This document shows positions 12,377 to 44,399 of a stretch of 64,000 nt of DNA, in pieces. The position numbers were made by a program, and so were the translations under genes. The notes below the pieces were generated by a model. That model was given only the letters and a program-made list of their open reading frames with translations. It was not told the origin of the DNA and did no database searches. Source of the stretch: Haloplanus natans DSM 17983. GTDB lineage: Archaea; Halobacteriota; Halobacteria; Halobacteriales; Haloferacaceae. Every line of letters begins with the position of its first letter. Position 1 is the stretch's first letter. The stretch spans positions 124,001-188,000 of the forward strand of contig NZ_ATYM01000003.1 of assembly GCF_000427685.1 (NCBI RefSeq). The letters run 5' to 3'.

Positions 12377-13331
12377 GTGTGTCGTCGTGTATTGCGGTGA
12401 ATTTCGCGGCGAGTTCGTTGATCCCGTCTCGAAGCGTGATTTCAGGGGCGTAGCCGGTCCGCCCGATCCTGTCGAAGTTGACGTGATACGACGGCCCGGG
12501 ATGCTCGTCCCTGAGGTAGGTGATGTCGAGGGCCGTCCCGAGTTCGTCTCGGACGAGTCCGGCAATCTCGCTGATCTGGTAGTTGGCGTCGTTAGCGCCG
12601 ACGTTATAGATCAACTCATCCCACTGCGCCGGCTGGAGCGCGGCGTGCTTGTACGCACGCGCCGCATCACGGACGTGAATGAACGGCCGCCAGTTCGTCC
12701 CGTCGCCGTAGACGGTGAGCGGACGGTCGGTGAGGCCCCGGAAGACGAACCGGTTCACGACCAGATTGAACCGGACGCCCGGCGAGTAGCCGTAGTTCGT
12801 GGCCATCCGCAGCGCAGTCGCGTCGAAGCCGTGCTCGGTCATGCGCTCGCGGAGCAAGGACTCCGAGGCGTGTTTGGTCTCTGCATACGGATTCAGTGGG
12901 TCCGGCTCCGTCTCCTCGGTGATGTTCCGGCTCGCCGCTCGTCCGTAGATGTTACACGACGACGCGAGAACGACGTTGTCGACGTCGAACTTCCCGGCGG
13001 CCGTGAGGACGTTTCGGGTGCCGTCGAGATTCACCGCGACGGTTTCCTCGCGTCGGTCATGGGTACTGTCCGCGCCCGTGATGGCGGCCAGGTGGACAAC
13101 GGCGTCAGCCCCACCCATCGCGGCCTCGACATCGCCGTAGTTGCGAACGTCGCCGCGATGGAAGACGTATCCATCACGCGCGTTGAGGCCGGTCCCAAAG
13201 AGGTTTCGTGGAGAACTCATCGACAGATTGTCGAGGACGCGCACCTCGTCGACCCGCTCGTCCGCGAGGAGTTGTGCCAGGAGTTCGCTTCCGATGTACC
13301 CGAGCCCGCCCGTGACGAGGACGCTAGTCAT
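12345..13331 (-). CDS. NAD-dependent epimerase/dehydratase (extended SDR)
   Basis: The 328-residue extended SDR has TGGLGYIGSE at residues 7-16, the strand SSCNIYGRA, and YAETK as the catalytic YxxxK. It is related to, but clearly distinct from, the downstream SDR, so this is an old duplication or separate recruitment. It overlaps the upstream intein-bearing gene by 8 bases and the downstream gene by 32 bases. Probably converts a nucleotide sugar used in surface glycan assembly. Confidence 0.88.
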   Translation of the reverse strand: MTSVLVTGGLGYIGSELLAQLLADERVDEVRVLDNLSMSSPRNLFGTGLNARDGYVFHRGDVRNYGDVEAAMGGADAVVHLAAITGADSTHDRREETVAVNLDGTRNVLTAAGKFDVDNVVLASSCNIYGRAASRNITEETEPDPLNPYAETKHASESLLRERMTEHGFDATALRMATNYGYSPGVRFNLVVNRFVFRGLTDRPLTVYGDGTNWRPFIHVRDAARAYKHAALQPAQWDELIYNVGANDANYQISEIAGLVRDELGTALDITYLRDEHPGPSYHVNFDRIGRTGYAPEITLRDGINELAAKFTAIHDDTHDRALPTRPA

Positions 13332-15588
13332 CCGTCGCCGTCGCTGCCTCTCCGTCGACCGACTGCTGGCGGTTCTCGAGCACGTCCGGCAGGAAGCGGT
13401 CCTCGTAGGCGGTGATCGTCTCCTGATAGCGCGTCAGCGTATCGAGGATGTCATCGACGCCGGCTTCGAAGCTCTGTGCCTGCTCGTCGATCAGGCCCAT
13501 ATACCGGGTGTTTTCGATCTCCATCTTGTGGCTTTCGTCCTCGTCGCGCGGGTTCTCGACGTGTTCGACCTCCACATGCAGCCCGTGGTCGTCTCCGACC
13601 TGTTCGATCGTCGTGGCAATCTCGACGATGCTGATGGCACGCGTGACCTGATTGTACACCACGTGGTCGGCCTCGCGCTCGTCGGGGGCCATCAGGGCTA
13701 CCTCCGCGAGCCCCTCGACGGCGTCCTCGAGGCTGATGAACGGCTTGCGCTGTGCGCCCTTCCCATAGACCGTGACGGGGTAGCCGGCGACGGCCTGTGC
13801 ACAGAAGCGATGCGCAACGGTCCCGAAGTAGTAATCGAAGTCGAAGCGGGTTTTGAGGCGGTCGTCAGCGCGCGTTTCCTCGGTCTCGGAGCCGTAAACG
13901 ATGGCCGTCCGGACGTCGGAGATCGGCACGTCGAACTGTTTGTTCGCCAGTCGCATATTGGCCGCGTCAAAGCTCTTCGAGTTCCCACACCAGATCGGTT
14001 TTCCGTTCCGACGCACCAACACGATTCCGCCGTCGACCGTACAGCAGTAGACGGAGCCATCGTACTTCTCTCGCCCGAACGCGTTACCCCCTTGGTTCGT
14101 CTGGAAACACCACGTGGGGCTAATACCGACCCGGTATTCGCGTTTCGTTTGGTAATTGTTTTCGTCACTTCTGTCGAGGTCGTGGACAGTTGCTCCGTAC
14201 CCCAGTTTGAGTGCTATTTCTTGGACATCGGCGGCGAACCGTTCGCTCGACGTATAGAAGGTCCATCCGCGGCCGTTGTTAGTTCCGTCTCCTTCGATGA
14301 GTGTTTCGAGCAGAACTTCGAGGTGGTCCTCGGACAGATTCCGCATCCATTCCGGAATGTGCTTTTCATCCTTGAATTGACGGAGATACGTCGCCAGCTG
14401 GTGATCGCTGAGTTCGATGTATTCCTGTTTGGAATCGATCTGGTGTCTGACTTTCTCGCGGTCGAAGCCAATATCCTCGAACAGCTCGATCAGTTCCTTC
14501 GCTCCCGTCTGGTAGATCCGTACGTTACCCGTTTGCTTGGCCTTGCCGACCGTTCCCTCGGTGAGCCACCACCCGAAGAACCGGATCCATGCGTCCAGTT
14601 CGATCTCCCGCGACTGGAGCTTGATCATCTTCGTTTGATTCACTTCGCGATCGCACCCCGGAAGTTCGAAGGTGTCCGGATCGGTCCCCTCCCAATCAGG
14701 GAACGACGCGAAAAAGCACGGATGTTTGTACTCATCGCCCAGCTGATCGGCCTCGACGATTTCCCGGCGATTCTCGAACGTGGCGTGACCACCCTGTGCC
14801 CAACTCGTCCCGATTAGCATACGATGGTTCGGCGTCACTTTCAGGTCGACACGTCGGTTCGAAACGGTGACCATCTCGCCAGAGTAGTCGTACTCTTGGA
14901 TGTCTGATGGGACCGTCCAGCCGGTATCCCCAGTGTCGGCGTCCATCGCCATCACTTCGTCCCGTTCGCTCAGCTCTTCGAATGGCTTCCAGCCGTCTTT
15001 CGTCAGAATTTCCGTCTCATCGTCGTAGCACTGGTGGTACCAACTCCCTGCCATAGAGGGAAAGGGGACTTCGTCCCGTTCGCCCTGGTTCTCCATCGTC
15101 GCGCCACCCTCGGGGATGGGGAACTCCGGCGCGCCGTAGACGCCGGTCGTCGTGGTTTCGATGAAGTGGGTGTCCGTCAGACCGTGTTCTTCGAGGCCCC
15201 AGAGGAGGTTGCGGGTCGCCTGCAGGTTGTTTCGCTGGGTGAAGTTCGCGCGCTCGCCGTTGATCTGGGAGTACGGCGCGGAGGGTTGGGCCGCCGCGTG
15301 GACAATCGCGTCCGGTTCGTGGACTTCGAGGAGTTGGTCAGTGAACTCCTTCTCCGTGAGGTCGCCCTCGACGAACGAGAGGTTGGTGAGGCCGTGGACG
15401 GCTTCGGCGGCGTCGAGACGGGCTTCGATATCCGCGACAGGGGTGGCGGAGACGCTGCCGATCTCTTCGACCCACTCTCGGCGACTGAAGTCGTCAACGA
15501 GAACGACACGGTCGTCGGTTCTCGAGGCGATACGAAGTGCTGTTGGCCAGCCGACGTAGCCGTCGGCACCAGTCACTAGCAGCGTCAT
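13324..15588 (-). CDS. SQD1-like NAD-dependent epimerase interrupted by an intein
   Basis: The 754-residue precursor contains 404 extein residues and a 350-residue intein (residues 187-536). The extein has TGADGYVGWP at the N-terminus and resembles UDP-sulfoquinovose synthase-like SDRs (SQD1/Agl3 type): the long N-terminal part with HAAAQPSAPYSQ and the GSWYHQSK active site fit that group. After splicing, YHQ joins SK to make the catalytic YHQSK, so enzyme activity should require protein splicing. It is the first gene of a three-SDR operon and has a TATA-like box 33 bases upstream. A sulfonated sugar product is a guess. Confidence 0.88.
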   Translation of the reverse strand: MTLLVTGADGYVGWPTALRIASRTDDRVVLVDDFSRREWVEEIGSVSATPVADIEARLDAAEAVHGLTNLSFVEGDLTEKEFTDQLLEVHEPDAIVHAAAQPSAPYSQINGERANFTQRNNLQATRNLLWGLEEHGLTDTHFIETTTTGVYGAPEFPIPEGGATMENQGERDEVPFPSMAGSWYHQCYDDETEILTKDGWKPFEELSERDEVMAMDADTGDTGWTVPSDIQEYDYSGEMVTVSNRRVDLKVTPNHRMLIGTSWAQGGHATFENRREIVEADQLGDEYKHPCFFASFPDWEGTDPDTFELPGCDREVNQTKMIKLQSREIELDAWIRFFGWWLTEGTVGKAKQTGNVRIYQTGAKELIELFEDIGFDREKVRHQIDSKQEYIELSDHQLATYLRQFKDEKHIPEWMRNLSEDHLEVLLETLIEGDGTNNGRGWTFYTSSERFAADVQEIALKLGYGATVHDLDRSDENNYQTKREYRVGISPTWCFQTNQGGNAFGREKYDGSVYCCTVDGGIVLVRRNGKPIWCGNSKSFDAANMRLANKQFDVPISDVRTAIVYGSETEETRADDRLKTRFDFDYYFGTVAHRFCAQAVAGYPVTVYGKGAQRKPFISLEDAVEGLAEVALMAPDEREADHVVYNQVTRAISIVEIATTIEQVGDDHGLHVEVEHVENPRDEDESHKMEIENTRYMGLIDEQAQSFEAGVDDILDTLTRYQETITAYEDRFLPDVLENRQQSVDGEAATATDD
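13981..15030 (-). other. Intein with LAGLIDADG homing endonuclease, inside the SDR active site
   Basis: The intein spans precursor residues 187-536. It starts with Cys (block A CYDDETEILT), has a block B TPNH at intein residues 66-69, and ends WCGN with Ser as the first C-extein residue. The penultimate residue is Gly instead of the usual His, a known variant. Two dodecapeptide-like motifs, FFGWWLTEGTVG (about 151-162) and LLETLIEGDGTN (about 240-251), indicate a LAGLIDADG homing endonuclease that appears complete. Endonuclease and splicing residues look intact, but activity is inferred. Confidence 0.9.
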
Positions 15589-15998: not shown

Positions 15999-17240
15999 AT
16001 GAGTACGAATCAGCCTACCACGGACGCCGTCGAACCAGCTGCGGAGGCGCGCACAAGGGCGGAGGCGCACACTGACGCCGACGCCGCGGACCTACTCGTT
16101 ACGGCGGACAGTGACCGCACGCCAACGCTCTCGGTCATCATGCCGACTCTAAACGAGGAAGACGGGATCGGCGAATGCCTGCATCGCATCAGGCAGGCGG
16201 TGGTCGACCTCCAAGTGCCGACGGAGATCGTCGTCAGCGATAGTTCGACCGACCGCACTCCCGATATCGCCCGTGACCACGGAGCGATCGTCGTCGAACC
16301 GGATCAACCCGGCTACGGTTACGCCTATCGCTACGCGTTCAAGCGCGCTCGCGGTGACTACATCGCCATCGGAGACGCTGACACAACGTACGATTTCACC
16401 GAACTGCCCAAACTGTACGCGCTCGTCGAATCGGGTGACGCCGATATGGCGATGGGAAGCCGGCTCAACGGGGAGATCAAACCCGGCGCGATGCCACCGC
16501 TGCATCGCTACATCGGCAACCCACTGCTCACGAAGTTTCTCAACGTCTTCTACGGCGCAGGGGTGAGCGACGCCCACAGCGGGATGCGCGTGTTCTCCCG
16601 CGACGCGCTCGAGGAGATGGATCTGCAGACGACCGGGATGGAGTTCGCCAGCGAAATGATCATGGAAGCCGGCGCGAGCGATCTCACCATCCGCGAAGAG
16701 CCCATCACCTATCACGAACGGGAAGGCGACGCCACCATCGAGAGCTTCCGGGACGGCTGGCGACACGTCCGGTTCATGCTCCTCAACGCGCCCGGCTATC
16801 TCTTCTCGGTCCCCGGATTCCTGTTGACGATTCTTGGCACGCTCATCATGGGCATTGCCCACTTCGGCATCTCGCTTGGCGGCGTGACACTCGGCACGCA
16901 CTCGATGATCGGTGGGAGTCTACTGACCCTTGTCGGCTTCGAGGTGCTCGCACTCGGGGTGTTCGCAACCGTGGCTGCCGATCCCGTTCGAAAACCGTCC
17001 GATCCCGTCACGACGTGGCTACTCGATCGGGTCCAACTCGAACACGGGGCCAGCGTGGGGGCGCTCGTCGCCGGGGTCGGGGGGATCTACATGCTCGTTA
17101 TGTTCGGACGCTGGGTCAGTAGCGGATTTACGCAACTCCCGCTGCTCACGACGAACGTGCTCGCGCTCACGGCGATCGTCTTCGGACTGGAAGTGATCTT
17201 CAGTTCCTTCTTCCTCAGCGCAATCGGGGAGAGCCACTGA
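15999..17240 (+). CDS. Membrane-anchored family 2 glycosyltransferase (DPM-like)
   Basis: The 413-residue protein has an acidic N-terminal tail of about 45 residues and a GT-A domain with SVIMPTLNEEDGIG, SDSSTDRTP and GDADTTYDF (DxD). Its C-terminal third carries about four hydrophobic helices. This resembles archaeal dolichol-phosphate hexose synthases and AglJ-type enzymes that start or extend dolichol-linked N-glycans. The ATG at 15999 is preferred over a GTG at 15978 that overlaps the upstream zinc-finger gene. It is the last glycan gene before the integrated replicon. Confidence 0.85.
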   Translation: MSTNQPTTDAVEPAAEARTRAEAHTDADAADLLVTADSDRTPTLSVIMPTLNEEDGIGECLHRIRQAVVDLQVPTEIVVSDSSTDRTPDIARDHGAIVVEPDQPGYGYAYRYAFKRARGDYIAIGDADTTYDFTELPKLYALVESGDADMAMGSRLNGEIKPGAMPPLHRYIGNPLLTKFLNVFYGAGVSDAHSGMRVFSRDALEEMDLQTTGMEFASEMIMEAGASDLTIREEPITYHEREGDATIESFRDGWRHVRFMLLNAPGYLFSVPGFLLTILGTLIMGIAHFGISLGGVTLGTHSMIGGSLLTLVGFEVLALGVFATVAADPVRKPSDPVTTWLLDRVQLEHGASVGALVAGVGGIYMLVMFGRWVSSGFTQLPLLTTNVLALTAIVFGLEVIFSSFFLSAIGESH

Positions 17241-17929
17241 GGTGCGCCCGTCTGCATCGATCCGTTTGCTGCTCGGGTTTTTGTGAGTGCTGGACAGACC
17301 TTGTCGGCTGATCGAGAGAGTTCTAGCAACGGATCGGTACGACTCGCCATCTTCTAGTCGTTCGAGTGCGTCTACGAGTTCAAAGTAACTGTCCTCACCG
17401 TCGTCAGGTTCGACGATGGGCTGTAGGTCCCCGCCGTCGTTGTGTCGGAATCCTGCAGGGACGTTTCGACCTATTTTCCTTGGTCGCTCGCTCGCTTCAC
17501 GCCGGCCTTCACGCGCCGTATCAATTGTTGTCGCTCTTGCTGATACACCATGCCGACGATATCAGCGACGGACCGACCGGTGCCGTCCGGTTTGACCTTC
17601 TCGACAGCTCCGTCCGTGATGTGAATTGTGACGCCGTGTTCCTCACAGGCGTCGAAGAATTCCTGCAGCGTTGCACCGCGCCGAGAGATCCGGCTGATCT
17701 CCCAGACGATGACGTGGTCGAACTCGTCATTTCGGATCGCGTCCAGGAGGGCGTTGAATTGTTCGCGCTCGTCGTTCGATCCGGATTCGATATCGACATA
17801 CTGTTCGACCCTGTCTTGGGGGAGGTCATGCCCGTCGATGTACCGGGTGATCGAATCGCGTTGGTGCTGGTCGTCTTGTCGATCTGTAGAAGGGCGAATG
17901 TACGTCCCGACTTTCCCCGCGTTCTCCAT
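17241..17929 (-). pseudogene. Serine resolvase, frameshifted
   Basis: The first 152 residues form a resolvase N-terminal domain: GTYIRPSTDRQDD with the catalytic Ser, then VWEISRISRRG and the YQQERQQ helix. Translation then stops at TAG after SDQGK. The continuation is readable one frame over: KIGRNVPAGFRHNDGG, then LERLEDGESYRSVARTLSISRQGLSS, which is the expected C-terminal helix-turn-helix. Loss of one A in the AAAA run at about 17473-17476 explains the break. The natural 3' end also appears lost at the junction with the GT2 gene. It may still make a short catalytic fragment without its DNA-binding domain. Confidence 0.75.
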
Positions 17930-18013
17930 GCCTCACTTACCGCCCGTCCTACACTTAAAGTTCGGATGTTGGTTGCAGGCTGCAAGCAGACATGTGCCTC
18001 GTTACAGGGGTGT

Positions 18014-18361
18014 TCACCTGAATTCGACTCGGTCAATACTGTCGAACACTTCCCGCCACTGGTCGGGCATGTCGCTACTCGTATACTCGCCGTTGTTCGC
18101 TCGCTTTAGGACTTGGCGAGCTTCCGTGTTACTGAGGGTCGTGAGGTTCATTTCGCTGACCGCGTGTTTCCGGGACCGTTCTGTGCTCATCACACGATCT
18201 TCCCGTATCGCCGTGTAGACGTAGTACCAGAACCACATGTCGCCTTCTTGCTCGATTGATTCCGCCGATGGACTCGACGCCTCAGGGGATGCAAAAAGTC
18301 GCTCAGTGAGTGATACCCCGGGAAGTGTTGCGACCGTGTTGAGGAAAGCCCGGCGTAACAT
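18014..18361 (-). CDS. Hypothetical protein of the integrated replicon
   Basis: This 115-residue protein starts MLRRAFLNTVATLPGVSL, a possible short hydrophobic leader, followed by an acidic Ser/Glu-rich linker and a C-terminal helical part (TLSNTEARQVLKRANNGEY). I recognise no family. It lies between the resolvase remnant and the TFB-like gene; no promoter is obvious. An upstream start at 18388 adds nine residues and is less likely. Confidence 0.5.
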   Translation of the reverse strand: MLRRAFLNTVATLPGVSLTERLFASPEASSPSAESIEQEGDMWFWYYVYTAIREDRVMSTERSRKHAVSEMNLTTLSNTEARQVLKRANNGEYTSSDMPDQWREVFDSIDRVEFR

Positions 18362-18596
18362 ACTCTGTCGACAGAGGATGAGACACAAAACCCTTCCCCC
18401 AAGTGCAGTGACACCGGAATTTCGAACTAATCACGAAGGACTGTAAATGGTGGGCGTGCGAGCGCGAGCTGACTACCCAAGCAGGAATCGACTCCCGCTC
18501 ACACGGCTCCCATTCGCGGGGAGGAATCCGAATTTGATAACGAACCATAATACATCTATCGCCACATCCGCTGAACCGTAATCATACGTTTGTTGA

Positions 18597-18604
18597 CTTT
18601 AAAG
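18597..18604 (+). promoter_or_regulatory. TATA box of the TFB-like gene
   Basis: CTTTAAAG lies 24 bases before the ATG at 18629, suited to a leaderless transcript. Confidence 0.5.
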
Positions 18605-18628
18605 TAGATGGCTGACTAATAATGAGAT

Positions 18629-19054
18629 ATGAGTGCAGGGCTTGGCGACCAACTTGACCCGGCGACTTACTTACCCGACGAGGATCGTGTTGCTGTTGAA
18701 CCGGAGGCGTACCGGTTCGCAGGTATCCTTCTTTCTGCGGCGTATCCGAGCGTCGATTTCCAGCACTTCTCTCGCTCCGGATTGGCTGGCAGTGCGCTGT
18801 ACATAGCGTCGGTGGCGGTGTCTGGGCGAGGCCGGGTGTCGCAGGAGGAAATCGCCAGTTCAGTCGGGACAACGAGAATGTCCATCCACACGCATACAGC
18901 TCGACTCGCCCGATTAGCGACAGAAGAAGTCGATCTCAGCACCTATCCAAGCATATCACCAGACGTACTGCAGCGTCTTGCGCAAGGACAGAGTGTTCAA
19001 CGAGTACTGCAGGAGAGGGCTGGTAGGGGCATCGAACCCAGTTCTCTGCCCTAG
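18629..19054 (+). CDS. Mini-TFB-like protein (single cyclin-type repeat)
   Basis: The 141-residue protein matches the second cyclin repeat of archaeal transcription factor B at about residues 28-95: the RSGLAGSALYIASVA helix is followed by VSQEEIASSVGTTRMSIHTHTARL, the recognition helix-turn-helix that reads BRE elements. It lacks the TFB zinc ribbon and first repeat. It could act as a DNA-binding regulator of the integrated replicon or as a dominant competitor of TFB. The call rests on motif resemblance only. Confidence 0.6.
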   Translation: MSAGLGDQLDPATYLPDEDRVAVEPEAYRFAGILLSAAYPSVDFQHFSRSGLAGSALYIASVAVSGRGRVSQEEIASSVGTTRMSIHTHTARLARLATEEVDLSTYPSISPDVLQRLAQGQSVQRVLQERAGRGIEPSSLP

Positions 19055-19101
19055 CTATTGGGGGTCATTTACGCCGAAAACAGAGCAAAGTCTAATTATT
19101 C

Positions 19102-19145
19102 TGACTACCAACAGCTACTAGAAGACTGATAACTGTTGGTAGTCA
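19102..19145. repeat. 13-base perfect inverted repeat between convergent genes
   Basis: TGACTACCAACAG (19102-19114) and its exact complement CTGTTGGTAGTCA (19133-19145) are separated by 18 bases. The pair sits between the 3' ends of the TFB-like gene (plus) and the winged-helix gene (minus). It could be a two-way transcription terminator or a protein-binding site such as a replicon operator. Confidence 0.6.
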
Positions 19146-19213
19146 TTCAGATTACACTTTTCTGTGTCTCTTCTTGGAGAATGACCCTAACTAGAAACAG
19201 GGGACATTCGCAC

Positions 19214-19849
19214 TCACTCATCGAAGGAAGGCCCCGATCTGTCTTTAGACGTGATCATATTCCAGGTTCGATTCGCGTCCTTCACAGTCGCCTGAACAGG
19301 CTGATCGAGGAGTCGCCGCCCACGGGCGGTGAGATCATAGATTTCTCCCTCAGACGTGACTGCCCGGCTAAGAAGGTCGAAGAAATACAGCTCGTACAAA
19401 ATTCCCTGTGTCGCGTAGAGATTCATCCCGATTCGATCTGCCGCTTCTCGTGGGGATATCCCGCTTCGATTCTCCAGTTTCTGAAGTAAGTCATGCGCCT
19501 GTTCGGTCACAACCACGATATCGCTCGGAGTAACTTCCTCGTCAGCTTCCGCTGATAGCTCACGAGCTAGTTCGACAGCCGACTCGACGAGTTCGCCGAA
19601 CAGTTCGGATTGCCGCCGTTCGTACTTCTCCTGTTTCGAGAGGACAAACTCTCCTTTCTCCGTCGTGACGTGCATCCCGGAGTTCTTGGCCGGACCGGGT
19701 TGTTCGAGCAACCCCATCTCGCTGAGTTTCGAGAGTTCTTTCGAGATGTAGTTCGGTGATTTGTCCAGCGCTGCGGCGATGTTCTTGCGCGTTTCGCGGT
19801 CCTCGCTACAGAGGTAGAGGATCCCCCAATCGGTATCTGAAAGCTCCAT
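19214..19849 (-). CDS. Winged-helix transcriptional regulator
   Basis: The 211-residue protein opens with a winged HTH: TRKNIAAALDKSPNYISKELSKLSEMGLLEQ (about residues 20-50), followed by a Lys/Glu-rich helical linker. A second HTH-like region (ISPREAADRIGMNLYATQGILYEL, about 130-153) suggests two DNA-binding units. It is transcribed divergently from the acidic protein/helicase/PrimPol operon and probably represses it, like plasmid or provirus maintenance regulators. No specific family name is supported. Confidence 0.7.
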   Translation of the reverse strand: MELSDTDWGILYLCSEDRETRKNIAAALDKSPNYISKELSKLSEMGLLEQPGPAKNSGMHVTTEKGEFVLSKQEKYERRQSELFGELVESAVELARELSAEADEEVTPSDIVVVTEQAHDLLQKLENRSGISPREAADRIGMNLYATQGILYELYFFDLLSRAVTSEGEIYDLTARGRRLLDQPVQATVKDANRTWNMITSKDRSGPSFDE

Positions 19850-19939
19850 TTACCAGTCTCCTGTACGTCTGTCGTATTAGTAATTATGGACTGGGTGCGA
19901 ACACAATACCTACACAGAGACACAATAGGTTTACTGTAA

Positions 19940-20145
19940 AACTTTATAAGTAGCGAAGCCATAGCGGGGAGTAGACACGATCTGACGGGCCCAGAACGAA
20001 GGTGGCGTCGGGACGAAGTGAGCGTCCCGCGCCTTTGGGTCTCTCGTCGTGCAGCACGAGGTGAATACAGTATGCGACCCAGCTCAACGTACGCGTTAAG
20101 GCTACTAAAAGAACCGGGAAGTCACCCAACTCACGGTGGTGGTCG
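19940..20145 (+). promoter_or_regulatory. Promoter and long structured leader of the replication operon
   Basis: CTTTATAAG at about 19940-19948 is a good TATA box for the plus-strand operon. A transcript starting about 25 bases later would have an unusually long leader of roughly 170 bases. It contains a strong hairpin: GGCG (20004-20007) plus CGGGACG (20009-20015), a 7-base loop, then CGTCCCG (20023-20029) plus CGCC (20030-20033). CCCA (19990-19993) may extend the pairing with TGGG (20036-20039). It could be an attenuator, a replication-origin hairpin or a small RNA. Confidence 0.5.
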
Positions 20146-21486
20146 ATGAGCGAAAACGGCGACAACGCTTCTGATACTGCCGATCAGGAGCCTGACGCTG
20201 ATGCCGACACCACCGATGACGAGGAGGTGACTCCCGACCAGCAACTTGCCGAGATCTGGACCGAGTACGAGACTGAACTGCGGGACTTGGACGGCGGGCA
20301 GGGAACGCGGAAAGCAATCGAGATGATCGAAGAGATGTCGGCGATCCAGGCCGACGTCGAGGTGAATGGTTCCGACAGCGGTGACCGGATCGAGTTGATC
20401 ATCGAGGGGTACGTCAACCAGATCGCCGACCGAAAATCGTACCTCACTCGCACCTCGCTCAAGGAGATCTGGGACGAGGAGGTGAGCCGTGCGAAGTCCG
20501 CAGCGAGCGTGGACGACGAGCTCCCTACGCAGTTCTGTCCTCTCATCAGGGAAACGCTGGAAAGCGTCGAGAAGAAGGTCACGCGCGACAGCGACTCGTC
20601 CGAGGCCGAGTACACGCTCGCCTTCGACGACGGCCGAGACACGAACTTCTCCGTCCCGCGTGGCAGCCTGTTCAGCGAAAAGAAGTTCTGGGAGGCATAC
20701 ACCAGCGCTAGCGGGCAGTACCCGCTTCGCCCCGATATGGAGGACGCCGAGTGGGGCAACTTCATCGGGTCAGTCATCGAACCACTGGAGGAGACGACCT
20801 GGGAAGACGGCCCGCGAACCACCGCGTTCTACCAGCTAGAGAATCTCGTGGCGAGCTCGGTCGCCTACGGCACCCTCTCGGACGCCGTCGAGCATGGAGG
20901 TGTGTACGTCGATGATGAGCCTCCGAATCACACGGAAGTCTGGGTACTGCGGGAGGACATCGCCCGAATCCTGCAGACCCACGACATCTCGGATCGCGCG
21001 TTGCAGATCGAGATCTCCTCCCGAGACGCGCACGCCGCAGCCGCTCGGAACGATCCCGACGACGAGGACAGCACTGGCGGCGGTGAGTCTGTCAGTTACT
21101 CAACGCACGTGAACGGACTGTGGCAAACGTTCTGGCAGCTGGACGCCGACTCGTTCGACGATCCAGACGCGTACGTCGAGGATCCAGACGACCGCCGAGA
21201 CCGTGAAGACGCGGCCATCGACGCAGCGACCGGGACGAACACAACTGGCGACAGCAATGAGGCGTCCTCCGATAGTGTGGATGAGGACAGCAACGATGAT
21301 GGTGAGTCGAATGACGACGACAACGATAACGAGGTAGACCACGCTCCAGGTGAAGGCCACTCCTCCGAGGCACATGACGAAGATGAACGGCGTGACGACG
21401 CTGTCGGTAGGAGTGCTGATGATCAATCTGAGGATGTCGGTGACACTATTCGATCAACAGAGATAGGAGACGATCAACAGAGATAG
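20146..21486 (+). CDS. Acidic partner protein of the helicase-PrimPol operon, C-terminally truncated
   Basis: This 446-residue very acidic protein has a folded centre (about residues 30-330, including a VPRGSLFSEKKFWEAY segment and a winged-helix-like region near EVWVLREDIARIL) and a long Asp/Glu-rich tail. I do not recognise a named family, but such genes accompany helicase and PrimPol genes in haloarchaeal integrative elements. The tail is cut short: a 20-base tandem duplication at 21451-21490 shifts the frame and brings in TAG at 21484. Without the duplication the frame would run on to TGA at 21612-21614, overlapping the next gene's ATG. Confidence 0.7.
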   Translation: MSENGDNASDTADQEPDADADTTDDEEVTPDQQLAEIWTEYETELRDLDGGQGTRKAIEMIEEMSAIQADVEVNGSDSGDRIELIIEGYVNQIADRKSYLTRTSLKEIWDEEVSRAKSAASVDDELPTQFCPLIRETLESVEKKVTRDSDSSEAEYTLAFDDGRDTNFSVPRGSLFSEKKFWEAYTSASGQYPLRPDMEDAEWGNFIGSVIEPLEETTWEDGPRTTAFYQLENLVASSVAYGTLSDAVEHGGVYVDDEPPNHTEVWVLREDIARILQTHDISDRALQIEISSRDAHAAAARNDPDDEDSTGGGESVSYSTHVNGLWQTFWQLDADSFDDPDAYVEDPDDRRDREDAAIDAATGTNTTGDSNEASSDSVDEDSNDDGESNDDDNDNEVDHAPGEGHSSEAHDEDERRDDAVGRSADDQSEDVGDTIRSTEIGDDQQR

Positions 21487-21490
21487 GAGA
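21451..21490 (+). repeat. 20-base tandem duplication causing a frameshift
   Basis: CGATCAACAGAGATAGGAGA occurs twice head to tail with no mismatch. Twenty is not a multiple of three, so the second copy changes the reading frame of the acidic protein gene. Confidence 0.95.
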
Positions 21491-21606
21491 CGGAGAGTGT
21501 GCCGACCGTGTAGACGAAACAGACAACGATTCGAACGACGACTACGGAATCACTGGTCGGTACGGGCCGGGTAGTGACGAAGAGGACGGGGACGGAGGTG
21601 AGTCGG

Positions 21607-23634
21607 ATGCGTGAGGTGGACTCGCTGCCCGAGTGGTGGAGTCGTGCTGTTGCAGCTCCGGGCGAGGTGCTGTCGATGGCCGACGGCTGGGAAGACATGG
21701 CGCTCCCGCTCGATCTCGTCCGCCGACTCCCTGAGAAGTTGCGGAACGCCGTGATCCGGGAAGGAGACGTCCATCCGCCGACCGACAGTGTGCGGCTCAA
21801 CGGTCCGCCGGGAACTGGGAAAACCACGCAGATCGCCCTCCGGTTGGCCGTCCTGATCGACGTCGAGGGGATTGACCCGGCGGAGATGACCGTCGTGACG
21901 TATCGGGTCGATCTCGCGGACGCGGTGAAACGGAAACTCCGTGCTTGGGGCGTCGTCTCTGACGACGCCGAACTGGAGTTCTTCTGCACGATGCACGCGG
22001 CAGCGAACAGAGCGACCGGGCTGTTACAGCGCGATCCGCGAGAGGCAGTTCGTGACGGAAACCTCGGAAACGCGATGGGCTACCGCGAGCGAGCGTTCTA
22101 CTGCAAGAAGCAGGACATCCAGTTCTACCCGCCGAAGAACCGACCGTGGGAAGACACGCGCGGCCAGTTGCTGCTCGGCCTGTTCGACTACATGCGGAAC
22201 AACCTACTGGACCCGACGGATGAGGCGGACGTCCGACAGTGTCCCTCTTACGACGACTTGCGGGAGAAGTGGCCCGGCGTCGATGTCCAGGCGGAGTGGG
22301 AGAAGTACCAGGACTTCAAGGCGCAACGCGGCTGGCACGACTTCTGGGAACTCCTCGAAGCAGCGCTGGACGGCTCGTCGCTCCCGCCGACGCGGGTCGT
22401 GGTCGTCGATGAGTACCACGACGCAACGCCCTTGATGGCAGCTGTCGCCGAAAAGTGGTTCGAGCACGCGGATACCGCCATTGCCGCCGGTGACCCGCTA
22501 CAGGTGGTCAATCAGTACGCCGGCTCCCATCCCCGGTTCTTCACGGAGCGGCTGGACCACCTGCCGGAGATCCTGCTTGATCGAACCTACCGCGTCGGTG
22601 AGGAGCACTGGCAGTCGGCCACGCGGATGCTCCAGAAAGAATTCACGCCGCCACCGGTCGAGCGCACCGGTCGGTCGGAGATCTTGACGTACAACGCGCC
22701 GCCGATCAAACCGCCGGAAGGCCGGACCAGTGACTGGACGACGCCGAGTGAATCCACGCCCGGGTCGCCAGCGTGGCTGTACAACGAGTTCATCGCCGAC
22801 ACGGAGCGGTCGATCCTGTACCTCGCCCGAACGCGACGATGGGCGCGGGGCGTGTCGGTGGCGCTGGATCGCGCCGGCATCATCCACGACGGCCAGCGTG
22901 GTCCCGGCGGCTGGGGATGGGACGGTCATCGCCTCGACGTCTTCAACGCGCTGAAGAAACTGGAGCGGGTTCCGGCGACGTACGGCGACGCACACCACGG
23001 CCGCGGACTCGACGAGTACGCCACCGACGCCGCCGACGCGATCAACCTCCGGTTCACAGCCGACGAGTTTGCCGAACTTCTCGATCACGCCAACGCGCGG
23101 ACGCTCACCCTGTCCCGTGACGACGCTGAGGACTTGGCTGCGGAACATCGCCGCGAGGAACGTGTGGCGACCATCCGTGACGTTGAGGAGATAGCGACGT
23201 CGGAGTTCTGGCAGCAGTACACCACTGGTGCTGCGAGCGTGAAGCGGCTCACGAAGGGCGACCTGACCGATCACGACCTGAAGGCACTCCGTCGAGCACT
23301 CCCGCGGTACGACGACGTCGTCGAAGACACGCATCACGTTCGCGTCCTCACCATCCACGCGAGCAAGGGAGCCGAGGCCACGGACGTCTGCTGCTTCGAT
23401 GGAATCACAGGGAAGATCGCCCGCGAGATGGATCGGTCGGAGGAGACGCGCCAGAACGAAGCTCGAACGTGGTACGTCGGCCTGAGCAGAGCGTCAGAGC
23501 GACTGCACCTGATGTACGACGCCTTCCCTGGGTCCATCGACCATCTACCGGGGAATCTCGCGCCGCAGGCGGCAGCGTCCGCTCGGCGGCAGGCGAGCGA
23601 AGCGATGACGGACGGGGGTGCTGACGACCGATGA
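21607..23634 (+). CDS. UvrD/PcrA-type superfamily 1 DNA helicase
   Basis: The 675-residue SF1 helicase has motif I LNGPPGTGKTT (about 64-74), motif II DEYHD (about 268-272), motif III-like AGDPLQVVNQYAG, motif V-like HASKGAEA and motif VI WYVGLSRASERL. It is presumed to unwind DNA during replication of the integrated element. I chose the ATG at 21607, which overlaps the ancestral stop of the upstream gene as ATGCGTGA; a GTG at 21574 is possible. Its 3' end overlaps the PrimPol gene by four bases, so the operon is translationally coupled. Confidence 0.88.
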   Translation: MREVDSLPEWWSRAVAAPGEVLSMADGWEDMALPLDLVRRLPEKLRNAVIREGDVHPPTDSVRLNGPPGTGKTTQIALRLAVLIDVEGIDPAEMTVVTYRVDLADAVKRKLRAWGVVSDDAELEFFCTMHAAANRATGLLQRDPREAVRDGNLGNAMGYRERAFYCKKQDIQFYPPKNRPWEDTRGQLLLGLFDYMRNNLLDPTDEADVRQCPSYDDLREKWPGVDVQAEWEKYQDFKAQRGWHDFWELLEAALDGSSLPPTRVVVVDEYHDATPLMAAVAEKWFEHADTAIAAGDPLQVVNQYAGSHPRFFTERLDHLPEILLDRTYRVGEEHWQSATRMLQKEFTPPPVERTGRSEILTYNAPPIKPPEGRTSDWTTPSESTPGSPAWLYNEFIADTERSILYLARTRRWARGVSVALDRAGIIHDGQRGPGGWGWDGHRLDVFNALKKLERVPATYGDAHHGRGLDEYATDAADAINLRFTADEFAELLDHANARTLTLSRDDAEDLAAEHRREERVATIRDVEEIATSEFWQQYTTGAASVKRLTKGDLTDHDLKALRRALPRYDDVVEDTHHVRVLTIHASKGAEATDVCCFDGITGKIAREMDRSEETRQNEARTWYVGLSRASERLHLMYDAFPGSIDHLPGNLAPQAAASARRQASEAMTDGGADDR

Positions 23635-24998
23635 CAACGGAGCGGAGTGCGTCGACACAGCCTCCAGACGCGTCGGCGGTCACGGGGAGTCCGGTACGCG
23701 TTGACGAGGTGACTGACGAGCACGTCGTGTTGGAGCTACCTGACTCGGTGCACGACGCCGACCGTGTGATTCCACAGGATCTGATCGAGTTCGGGCAGAC
23801 GGCCCGGAACTGGTTCTGCTGGGATCTGGAACAGAAGCAACCGCGTGCCCCGTTCAACGACGGTTATGCAGGGACAGTGAAGTGGGGCCGGGATTCGATT
23901 TCGTGGGACAACCGAGTCGGCGGACGGTTCGGCGACGCGATGGAGGCGCTGAACGGAACCGTAAACGGCCACGTCGATCCGGCGTGGTACTGGGGGACGA
24001 CAAACCACGGCGAGGCCGTGGAGCCACGTCCGTTGTACCCGATGGTGATCGTGCCCCACGCAGACTTCCAGCCTGACGACGGGCCGCTCATGCTCGTTGA
24101 TTTGGACGACGTGATCGACGTTCGGGACGACGGGACAGGTATGATGACCCGGGAGGCGTGGGACATCATTCAGTCGCTCGGCGGATACGCGGAGGTGTCA
24201 CGGTCGATGACCGGTGCGCACGTCTTCGTGAAGGGACGGATTCCCGGCGACGTCGATGGGCGGAAGATCATGGAGGAGTTGAATGAGGGCGGGCACGTCG
24301 AGATCTACGGATACCCCGCCAACGGTCGGGTGGTCGGGACGACGTGGCTGCACATCGAGGATACACCGCGGCACACTGTCCCCGAGGCACAGAACGTGAT
24401 TGACGAGTTGGTCGATGAGTACGTCGATGATGAGGATCAGTTGAGCGACCAGGAGCAGGCTGCTGCCGTGATCGAACGGTACCAGTCCCAGATTCGGGGC
24501 GACCAGAGTGGGGGTAGTCAGTCAAAGTACTACGACCTCGATCCGGTTCCGATAGCGAACACCGGACCATTCCGGACGTACGGGAGGAACGGTCAGGGTC
24601 CGCATCCTGTCCACGGGGCGACGACGTCCCACGACAATCCCGGGCCGGACGACGAAGACAGCACGAACTTCGGTGTGGATAGCCAGAACGGGTGGAAGTG
24701 CTGGGCACACGACGACGGTGGGGGTGCGCTCCAGCTGATTGCGGTCCTCGAAGGCATCAGGGACTGCGGGAATGCCGCGGACGTCATGCAGGATCCGGAG
24801 GATGCGCTTCAAATCTGTTTGGCAGCGCGTGACGAGTACAGTTCTGACCTAGATGACGAAGACCCGCCTACAGTGGCGTTGAAAGGTGTTTGTGAGGTTC
24901 AGAATCTGGATTATCCCGAGGATGGGGCGCTCGATAGTGGGACATACGAGATTGCTCGGGGGCTGTACGATGCTATGAGATTCTCTGCAAAGGGTTGA
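23631..24998 (+). CDS. PrimPol-like archaeo-eukaryotic primase
   Basis: The 455-residue protein has the AEP signature in order: LVDLDD (about 155-160, metal-binding Asp pair), EVSRSMTGAHVFVKG (about 188-202, the usual EvSpSGtGlHvf motif) and EIYGYPANGRVVGTT (about 224-238). This matches mobile-element primase-polymerases. A C-terminal region with HPVHG and WKCWAHDDGGG (about 325-365) resembles the Cys/His zinc module of replicative primases. With the upstream helicase it forms a minimal replication module. A stretch of the normal second Cys is missing from the zinc module, so metal binding is doubtful. Confidence 0.8.
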   Translation: MTTERSASTQPPDASAVTGSPVRVDEVTDEHVVLELPDSVHDADRVIPQDLIEFGQTARNWFCWDLEQKQPRAPFNDGYAGTVKWGRDSISWDNRVGGRFGDAMEALNGTVNGHVDPAWYWGTTNHGEAVEPRPLYPMVIVPHADFQPDDGPLMLVDLDDVIDVRDDGTGMMTREAWDIIQSLGGYAEVSRSMTGAHVFVKGRIPGDVDGRKIMEELNEGGHVEIYGYPANGRVVGTTWLHIEDTPRHTVPEAQNVIDELVDEYVDDEDQLSDQEQAAAVIERYQSQIRGDQSGGSQSKYYDLDPVPIANTGPFRTYGRNGQGPHPVHGATTSHDNPGPDDEDSTNFGVDSQNGWKCWAHDDGGGALQLIAVLEGIRDCGNAADVMQDPEDALQICLAARDEYSSDLDDEDPPTVALKGVCEVQNLDYPEDGALDSGTYEIARGLYDAMRFSAKG

Positions 24999-25060
24999 TG
25001 ATCTCACTCACCCAGAGATCAAGCGAACTGTGTGGCTAAATGACAGCGAAATTAAATCGT

Positions 25061-25859
25061 TTAGAGGCCCTCAACGTAGGATCGTCGTGCCTCACGGCGC
25101 TCGGACTTCTTACACATATCGTACCACAGTTCGATGGTTTCCGGACTCGCGTCGCATCAGCCCGAGATCACGTCAGCTGTCGGGACGCTGTTTTCCCGGA
25201 GATGAGTATTATAGCCACGTCGAAGGGGATGTGGCGAGACGGACTCTGGACAGTCATACGCAGCATTGTTTGTTTGCGCTGCCAGGCATGCCTCCGGATC
25301 CTCTCCGACTGGGCACTCTTCACCAATTGAGCAGGGTCGAGACCACGCATACACGTACTGACGGATTGTACTCTTCTGGAGTCGCCCGTTGCCCGTCGTG
25401 AGTAATGGCTCTCTGCAATCGTCGTCGGTTACGTCGTTTCGTTTGGCTTGGATATAGCCGTCGAGGGCTTTCGCTGCTTTACTCGAAATACTGATTTCGC
25501 GTTCGCCTGCCACACCATTATTCAATCGTGTTCCCCGTTTCCTCACGGTTGACTACCTTGATGTAGCGCTCATCAGAATCATAATCATCGAGATCGAATG
25601 CGTACAGGGTAGACTGTCGAACTCCAGTTTCGGCCAGGATTTCCCAGACGATGTGTTCCTTGGTAAAGGGTTCATACTTAGCGAGATTGGCCACGATCTC
25701 CTTTGCCTCTTCGCGGGGCAACCACGTGTCATTGACCTTCTCTGTCTCTGAGATGGTCGGGAGGATAACGAATTCGTGGAACGCCTTCTCGAATACTTCT
25801 CGCCGCTCGCAGTACCGAAAGAACTTCCGGAGCGATCTAGATATCATCCAGCCAGTCTA
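25061..25859 (-). pseudogene. Tyrosine integrase of the replicon, broken three times
   Basis: Reading leftward, the frame starts with LRKFFRYCERREVF (truncated N-terminal SAM-like domain, with TAG just upstream). It includes the catalytic region LAETGVRQSTLYAFDLDDY, then shifts by one base near 25525 between EETGN and TRLNNGVAGERE. It then gives HPLRRGYNTHLRE (the HxxR box) and meets TGA after ADVISG. Beyond that stop the family-typical ending is still legible, DASPETIELWYDM followed by basic residues up to TAA at 25061. The WYD tyrosine is the DNA-joining nucleophile and lies beyond the stop, so the enzyme should be inactive. Confidence 0.8.
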
Positions 25860-43148: not shown

Positions 43149-44399
43149 TCACTCGAAGTACGTGATATCTGCGTCTCTGGAGAGAGCTTTTTTCACGATA
43201 TCGAGATCCTCGATGATGCGGTGTCTGTTGGTGATGCCGCGACCACGGCCGCGGCCGACACGCTCCGACCGCACCACCGAGTGGAAATTAAACTGCTTGA
43301 GAATATCGGATACGCGGCGTTCGGATACTGTCTTGGTATCCATAGCGGTCGCGATCTGCGTGTACTGCTCGTACACTGCCTGCGTTGGGACAGCCCCCTC
43401 TTGCTGTTCCGCCTGGAGAACGAGCGCACTAAGCACCAGCTTCGCTAGCTGCGTTTCCCCGTCGATTAGTTCCCGCACCCGGTTAATTTCGGTCTGTTCT
43501 TTGGCTTGCCGAGCGTGGGCTTCTGTGACCATTTCTGCGTCTTCGTCCTTTGCGATATCACCCGCGATCCGAAGGATATCGATCGCTTTGCGAGCATCGC
43601 CGTGTTCGCGAGCAGCCAGGGCCGAGACGAGCGGAATGACGTCGTCAGTCAGGACGCCCGGCTTGAACGCTTCTTTCCGGCGCTCGAGGATTTCGTTCAA
43701 CTGATTTGCGTCGTATGCAGGGAAGACGAGGTCGGTATGTTGCAGACTCGATTTCACGCGCTCGGAGAGATTGTCGGGATAGTCAAGCTGATTCGAGATA
43801 CCGATGATTCCAACCCGTGAATCGACGATTTTCTGATTTTCGCGAGCCCGTGAGAGTGTGCGGAGCACCTCGTCATCTTCGAGCATGTCGACCTCGTCGA
43901 ATATCACGAACACAATGTCGGTCATCGTGTCGACGATCGTCCAGAGTCGCTTGTAGTAATCTGATTTCGACAGCCCTCGAAGCGGAACGGTGACCCCCGT
44001 TTCGTCAGCGTCGTTCAGTTTATTTGCGATCGTTTTGACCGCAGCCGTTTCCGTCGTTTCCTCACCACAATCGAGAATTACGGTCTCGACGGACGTGCCT
44101 CGCTCGGCAGCCTCAGGTTTGAGTCGCTCCGTGACCATCCGCGCGGTCAGGCTTTTTCCCGTCCCAGTTTTTCCGAAGATGAGGAGAGCAGTCGGTGCTT
44201 CACCGAAGATTGCCGGATTCAGTGCATTTGCAACTCGCTGCATCTGTGTATCTCGGCCAACTACTTTGTCTGGGTCGGGCAAATGTCCGATTTCGAGTAA
44301 GGTCTTGTCGCGGAAAATGGGCCGGTCGTAGCGAAACAGTGGGTCGCCGTCATCATCAGGCGAACCGTTCGTGCCGTCCGTTCCGGAGGGGTGTTCCAT
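43149..44399 (-). CDS. orc1: Orc1/Cdc6 replication initiation protein
   Basis: The 416-residue AAA+ protein has Walker A GKTGTGKSLTARM (about 75-87), Walker B VFVIFDEVDML (about 160-170), sensor 1 IIGISNQLDYPDNLS, and a C-terminal winged helix (about 340-410) that binds origin repeats. It starts RYDRPIFRDKTLLEIGHLPD, as haloarchaeal Orc1 proteins do. I chose the ATG at 44399; an upstream start at 44510 would run through the promoter. A TATA box lies 24 bases upstream and origin-like repeats occupy the adjoining 450 bases, so it probably serves its own origin. Confidence 0.93.
   Translation of the reverse strand: MEHPSGTDGTNGSPDDDGDPLFRYDRPIFRDKTLLEIGHLPDPDKVVGRDTQMQRVANALNPAIFGEAPTALLIFGKTGTGKSLTARMVTERLKPEAAERGTSVETVILDCGEETTETAAVKTIANKLNDADETGVTVPLRGLSKSDYYKRLWTIVDTMTDIVFVIFDEVDMLEDDEVLRTLSRARENQKIVDSRVGIIGISNQLDYPDNLSERVKSSLQHTDLVFPAYDANQLNEILERRKEAFKPGVLTDDVIPLVSALAAREHGDARKAIDILRIAGDIAKDEDAEMVTEAHARQAKEQTEINRVRELIDGETQLAKLVLSALVLQAEQQEGAVPTQAVYEQYTQIATAMDTKTVSERRVSDILKQFNFHSVVRSERVGRGRGRGITNRHRIIEDLDIVKKALSRDADITYFE

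Follow-up and report, generated by a model that had tools for sequence, protein, structure and literature searches.

A probable replication and priming module of haloarchaeal mobile elements, with an acidic protein, an SF1 helicase and apparently exchangeable primase cores

Known haloarchaeal plasmids replicate by Orc/Cdc6, Rep or pleolipovirus-type replicases. A different arrangement is found in the pTN2-like and pIRI48-like plasmids of Thermococcus, in which one operon combines an SF1 helicase with an AEP primase-polymerase (PrimPol) (PMC3543421, PMC3973330). The PrimPol of pTN2 is active, and integrated three-gene cassettes of integrase, primpol and helicase are on record (PMC3543421, PMC3973330). 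Catalytic and C-terminal primase domains shuffle between these plasmids, one of which carries a winged HTH there (PMC3543421). Other solutions are the NrS-1 polymerase, where an SPS loop takes the place of the zinc finger (PMC8718748), and the CCPol-MP-Cch2 operon of SCCmec, which consists of a polymerase/primase, a small partner conferring priming and a 3'-5' helicase (PMC7581432). AEPs of mobile elements have been reviewed (PMC5862659).

How does a haloarchaeal locus with a similar gene set compare? In the window, the whole stretch of 64,000 nucleotides from Haloplanus natans DSM 17983 that was analysed here, the open reading frame list places genes for an acidic protein, a helicase and a PrimPol one behind the other (Table 1). 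The original prediction had delimited these frames correctly and described them as the coupled replication module of a self-priming plasmid. Both couplings that it proposed are real: the helicase and PrimPol genes share an ATGA at 23631-23634, and in the copy of Halomicroarcula rubra (L001/L035) the acidic gene extends 8 nt into the helicase gene, over ATGCGTGA, precisely as had been suggested for the ancestral state. This copy comes from a different haloarchaeal family and is 94% identical in DNA to window positions 19192-24986. The sole indel between the two within the operon is the 20-bp tandem duplication of the window, where the acidic gene now stops 120 nt before the helicase ATG and the overlap is lost; the frameshift affects the variable acidic tail alone. 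Relative to the nearest copy, dN/dS is about 0.03 for the helicase gene and 0.12 for both the acidic and the PrimPol gene, which points to purifying selection on all three. Together with the synteny described below, this selection puts the three-gene set far beyond chance. We favor, at a probability of about three in four, the reading that the genes form a module for initiating and priming replication in integrating mobile elements of haloarchaea, which a tailed virus uses too.

Table 1. Features in and around the module in the window, with the basis of each assignment.
Feature	Positions	Strand	Basis
Serine recombinase of 152 aa, truncated to the catalytic domain	17471..17929	-	PF00239 (1e-27); aligns to a 243-aa relative over the latter's residues 3-147
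Small TFIIB/cyclin-like or HTH protein, conserved upstream neighbour of the module	18629..19054	+	Weak HTH/TFIIB matches
Divergent winged-HTH protein, probable operon regulator	19214..19849	-	PF14947 (4e-6)
Conserved non-coding leader, candidate promoter/leader, possibly origin	19924..20145	+	Conservation; function inferred
Acidic protein, probable primase partner; C-terminal tail cut short by frameshift	20146..21486	+	A1 family, fusions, AlphaFold
20-bp tandem duplication causing the frameshift	21451..21490	+	Absent in L035
UvrD/Rep-like SF1 helicase, 675 aa	21607..23634	+	Pfam, motifs, own clade
NrS-1-type AEP primase-polymerase; HxxH...CxxH (CHC2-like) segment; conserved C-terminal tail, residues 385-455	23631..24998	+	
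Tyrosine integrase pseudogene	25064..25847	-	tblastn, query the intact integrase of L034 (413 aa); N-terminal half gone, one frameshift, one internal stop

With the pTN2-like plasmids the module shares its placement on archaeal mobile elements and an SF1 helicase gene adjoining an AEP primase gene, but the order is reversed: PrimPol precedes helicase in Thermococcus, and helicase precedes PrimPol here. PolpTN2 is moreover a different AEP with a C-terminal PriL-like domain, which at the level of Pfam comparison has no match in the window PrimPol, and for the Thermococcus plasmids neither a homologue of the acidic protein nor a DnaG-type replacement is on record. By analogy, the haloarchaeal version would be a variant of a logic already known from these plasmids. 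The suggestion of an under-described replicon type can be kept in part. It applies to the haloarchaeal module and to the acidic protein, which has no known family, but not to the pairing of an SF1 helicase with an AEP, a type known from pTN2-like plasmids (PMC3543421). In the open-access literature we found no description of the haloarchaeal module or of the acidic family, nor any account of AEP and DnaG cores replacing each other in front of a conserved tail.

The helicase matches the N- and C-terminal UvrD domains in Pfam (PF00580, 9e-12; PF13361, 3e-7) and carries all main SF1 motifs, in line with the prediction: GPPGTGKTT at residue 66, DEYH at 268, GDPLQ at 295, RTYRV at 326, HASKGAE at 584 and GLSRASE at 625. 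These domains and motifs make it a member of the UvrD/Rep group (SF1A), and PcrA/UvrD structures are its best PDB matches. In a tree, the module helicases form a single clade (support 100/100) apart from host UvrD and from the helicases of Thermococcus pTN2/pIRI48, the latter separation being subject to a caveat of long branches. The helicases of the window and of H. rubra are 99% identical, and loci L037 and L038 are 98% identical in DNA over 12 kb. Such near-identity in different families indicates recent transfer.

For the PrimPol, the predicted motifs are present at residues 155 (LVDLDDV), 188 (EVSRSMTGAHVF) and 223 (VEIYG), and the four catalytic residues D157, D159, H197 and E224 are invariant in an alignment of 19 rows (A2; the window and 18 relatives). 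S190-x-S192 aligns with the SPS loop of NrS-1. The family profile of these sequences matches solved NrS-1 primase structures at 4.8e-13 to 2.8e-12, and another viral or island-type 'DNA primase' structure at about 4e-15 (3.8e-15). The window protein alone has no match in Pfam; its residues 149-284 match PHROG primases. The likeness to the NrS-1 phage enzyme thus comprises the AEP core with its DxD, SxS loop, H and E motifs and a match of about 5e-13 (PMC8718748, PMC7102993). Differences are the lack of the helix-bundle domain (HBD, PF22763) and of a ring helicase domain, and the presence of the CHC2-like segment, the tail and a separate SF1 helicase gene. Because the HBD is missing, the sequence is best described as having an NrS-1-type core rather than as a full NrS-1 homologue. 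The AlphaFold model is too poor for use (pLDDT 34.5). Primase and polymerase activity are predicted for the protein. Some PrimPol match is given by 185 of the 391 haloarchaeal genomes. Standalone NrS-1-type PrimPols of about 430 aa (L113-L117) are a separate and very common haloarchaeal family; their AEP core is about 40% identical to that of the window protein, but they possess their own HBD-like region and a coiled coil. They were not counted as module members, having no adjoining acidic or module helicase genes.

The search for the three-gene set elsewhere, which the original prediction had proposed, was productive: the order of acidic gene, helicase and third gene recurs in about 20 haloarchaeal loci of many genera, usually with overlaps of 1, 4 or 8 nt, and on a tailed-virus contig. 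The acidic family (A1) occurs in 20 of the 391 haloarchaeal genomes, in 12 genera, and was not detected in any genome sampled from classes of the phylum other than Halobacteria; the haloarchaeal and phylum-wide draws overlap. A module helicase gene adjoins the acidic gene downstream in 21 of the 22 loci with an acidic gene, followed by a primase in most; L076 has both genes, but no primase core can be recognised there. Upstream, a divergent winged-HTH gene precedes the module (equivalent positions in L035, L040, L043, L075 and L078-L081), as does the small TFIIB-like gene in the window, L075 (tblastn, 2e-15), L080 and L081.

Are these loci mobile? The module is flanked by an integrase of the window type in L037-L041, L050 and L077, and by a serine recombinase of about 240 aa related to that of the window (shared cluster 10) in L037, L038, L039 and L041. 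In L078 a tRNA-Leu gene is followed by an intact integrase (PF00589, 6e-18) and the module, and tRNA genes also abut it in L075, L079, L080 and L081. The expectation that the module belongs to mobile elements is borne out by this context and by the virus contig; the relatives are not a set of purely chromosomal genes without such links. A SIR2-type, defence-like gene (PDC-S25, 6e-69) lies between module and serine recombinase in two of these loci (L037:7011-8459, L038:11568-13016). A tblastn search with all three proteins in a plasmid collection for free circular copies returned only fragments on pNATPE01 and distant Thermococcus helicases. Phage records gave no match to the PrimPol and only distant bacterial phages for the helicase. 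For the scan of viral contigs the PrimPol alignment A2 was too diverse and a narrower one (A4) found none, while the helicase alignment (A3) found two contigs, L086 and L087. The second of these (IMG/VR 3300021446_000176), 134 kb long, has acidic and helicase genes adjoining a 1482-aa protein with a match to the large subunit of ribonucleotide reductase.

Several loci show the parts of the module in new combinations. The tail of the PrimPol (its last ~65 residues) is found on a PF09250-type core in L074 (3.9e-9), on another AEP-like core in L075 (1.4e-10; core motifs read by eye alone) and on a DnaG-like core in L077 (7e-12), which itself matches a PHROG DNA primase at 3e-10. All three sequences lay outside the search model. 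At the level of sequence, the catalytic core of the third gene is exchanged between primase superfamilies with retention of the C-terminal tail. On the tailed-virus contig L086 (IMG/VR 3300010222_000007) a single protein unites an AEP core, the NrS-1 HBD (PF22763, 4.7e-31) and the acidic domain (4e-65); its gene is ATGA-coupled to the helicase gene, with terminase, portal and head genes nearby. In L082 a protein with CHC2-like, DnaG_N and TOPRIM regions (DnaG structures, 3e-8) is encoded just upstream of the module helicase, and at its C-terminal end there is similarity to the acidic family (hmmsearch E 0.04; hhalign probability 94%), which makes a fusion of the acidic domain to a DnaG/TOPRIM primase probable. 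In pNATPE01 of Natrinema pellirubrum (L043/L096, 10735-13570) an MCM gene and a coiled-coil gene replace everything from about codon 18 of the acidic gene to about codon 566 of the helicase gene. What is kept there are the leader, the first acidic codons, the helicase C-terminus and pieces of the PrimPol, which is also split by a TnpB element. These examples may hint at a primase 'socket', in which a fixed acidic, winged-helix-like partner, the SF1 helicase and the conserved tail accept unrelated cores — several AEP classes and bacterial-type DnaG — and in which MCM can even stand in for helicase and partner together; we advance this generalization tentatively, at slightly less than even odds.

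The acidic protein (27% D+E overall, 38% in the tail) matched no family in Pfam, PHROGs or NCBIfam. Structure prediction, recommended from the start for this protein and run here on proteins of the window and of related loci, was partly informative: the AlphaFold model has a pLDDT of 70 (about 80 over residues 30-300), and its residues 223-333 are predicted in the order helix-strand-helix-helix-strand-strand that is typical of winged helices, but sequence searches, and fold searches of the PDB, returned no significant match and no confident fold. We disregarded matches of the model to NTPDases (TM 0.1) and helical bundles; a match to the SaPIbov1 initiator (Z 6.6 over 87 residues) falls below the level of trust. 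When compared with viral models by Foldseek, the best match is a phage DNA primase (probability 1.00), followed by two phage primase/Toprim proteins (0.95 and 0.90), all with low TM-scores of 0.14-0.23. The gene fusions and these viral matches place the acidic protein as a putative primase-associated domain, which is a separate chain in most elements, and a probable partner of the primase. Its C-terminal, winged-helix-like region probably binds DNA, as far as the model can tell. This division of labor resembles the replicon of SCCmec, likewise a three-gene replication operon of a mobile element, in how it would work and with no homology claimed: CCPol is an A-family polymerase and Cch2 an unrelated helicase. 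It also recalls the minimal replicon of pRN1 (ORF904/orf56), with AEP primase, helicase and winged-helix functions plus an upstream regulator (PMC4234260), although there a single chain with an SF3 helicase stands in place of three chains with an SF1 helicase.

Upstream of the operon, the leader differs from that of H. rubra at 2 of 222 nt, a conservation above that of the genes, and it is mostly retained in pNATPE01 though the genes downstream were replaced. It contains GC-rich dyads, one around 20002-20031, and a TATA-like TTTATAA near 19942, the latter making a promoter likely. Rfam gave no match to it, and when the sequences ahead of the acidic gene were compared between loci, no convincing iterons, clear origin repeats or shared dyads were found. 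A structured leader RNA or an origin is possible, the latter as a guess.

If the three genes do form a replication module, the SF1 helicase would unwind the DNA of the element and the NrS-1-type AEP would lay primers, and perhaps also short stretches of DNA, which host polymerases would extend. The acidic protein would join primase to helicase and, through its C-terminal region, probably bind DNA, maybe duplex; it would supply in trans the role of the C-terminal domains in single-chain plasmid replicases. The leader, together with the divergent winged-HTH gene, would be the likeliest promoter and the first candidate place for the origin from which the excised circle would presumably replicate.

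This proposal has to be weighed against other uses of the same proteins. UvrD/PcrA/Rep helicases and PrimPols work in repair and restart, and the genes could instead be a repair or restart cassette of SF1 helicase and lesion-bypass PrimPol, which aids the damage tolerance of host or element and does not act as initiator. The repair background of both families, the PcrA/UvrD structures among the helicase matches and the lack of origin repeats agree with such a cassette. We nevertheless consider it improbable, since the helicase clade is separate from host UvrD, the set is missing from about 95% of the sampled haloarchaea, it sits at the replication-gene position of the tailed virus and is replaced in pNATPE01 by MCM, a replicative helicase; an exchange of primase types, too, suits priming more than lesion bypass. 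A relation to Gabija anti-phage defence, in which a UvrD-like GajB helicase is paired with a Toprim-bearing partner, is far less credible. The helicase does match GajB profiles (1.8e-21) and structures (8.5e-21), and there is defence-like cargo in some elements, such as the SIR2-type gene of L037, but the matches fall in generic UvrD motifs, no GajA (an OLD-family Toprim nuclease) adjoins and neither neighbour matches it, and this reading was rejected. The Toprim proteins in the third slot are moreover DnaG-type primases, the third protein of the window is an AEP, and a virus contig itself bears the module.

Two further alternatives concern parts of the proposal. The module may serve replication with an acidic protein that merely binds ssDNA or recruits, without sequence-specific origin binding, the origin being opened by the helicase or by a leader RNA transcript. 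A precedent is MP of SCCmec, which gives its polymerase ssDNA binding and priming, origin recognition being left to the helicase (PMC7581432), and the conserved, structured leader and the acidic tail would fit; the winged-helix-like order of the model, itself a prediction, suggests duplex binding instead, and we hold this variant to be rather unlikely. The window copy, on the other hand, stands nearly an even chance of being a dead, functionless remnant kept by chance beside a surface-glycan gene island. Its broken integrase, truncated recombinase and frameshifted acidic gene speak for this, as do fragments of the same element that adjoin glycan genes in several genomes. Against it stand the intact helicase and PrimPol genes with their low dN/dS, although this ratio mainly reflects the time before decay. 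Whether true or not for the window, the remnant reading is inapplicable to the family.

The state of the window copy also decides the claim that it is a plasmid. The host contig is 429 kb long, with six Orc1/Cdc6 genes, of which one lies in the window (43149-44399, minus strand) and five elsewhere; 16S rRNA is absent from it, the rRNA being located on another contig. It is a probable megaplasmid built from several replicons. Given the broken integrase, the truncated recombinase and this Orc-rich contig without rRNA, the copy is an integrated, decaying element and not itself a plasmid, contrary to the original prediction. Its statement that Rep, MCM and Orc genes are lacking is correct for the genes scanned in 17.4-25.9 kb, but not for the window, in view of the Orc1/Cdc6 gene further along. 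No attachment sites in the form of direct repeats of tRNA ends (at least 14 nt, within 20 kb) were found. Surface-glycan islands of several genera, with glycosyltransferases and a sulfatase, hold intact or broken copies of PrimPol and helicase (window 15999-25850; L034, L036, L043, L044, L046, L084), and the element might travel with, or assist the shuffling of, surface-glycan genes. At 13324-15588 (minus strand) an NAD-dependent epimerase gene is broken by an intein-like insert with Hint and LAGLIDADG domains.

If the replication reading is true, haloarchaea would have one more type of replicon, equipped with a primase and an SF1 helicase of its own, from which shuttle vectors might be built. 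That AEP and DnaG-type primases have been exchanged in one slot, while the partner, the helicase and the tail stayed in place, bears on how two unrelated primase superfamilies can replace each other, and the relatives of the module offer a defined set of proteins in which this replacement could be tested.
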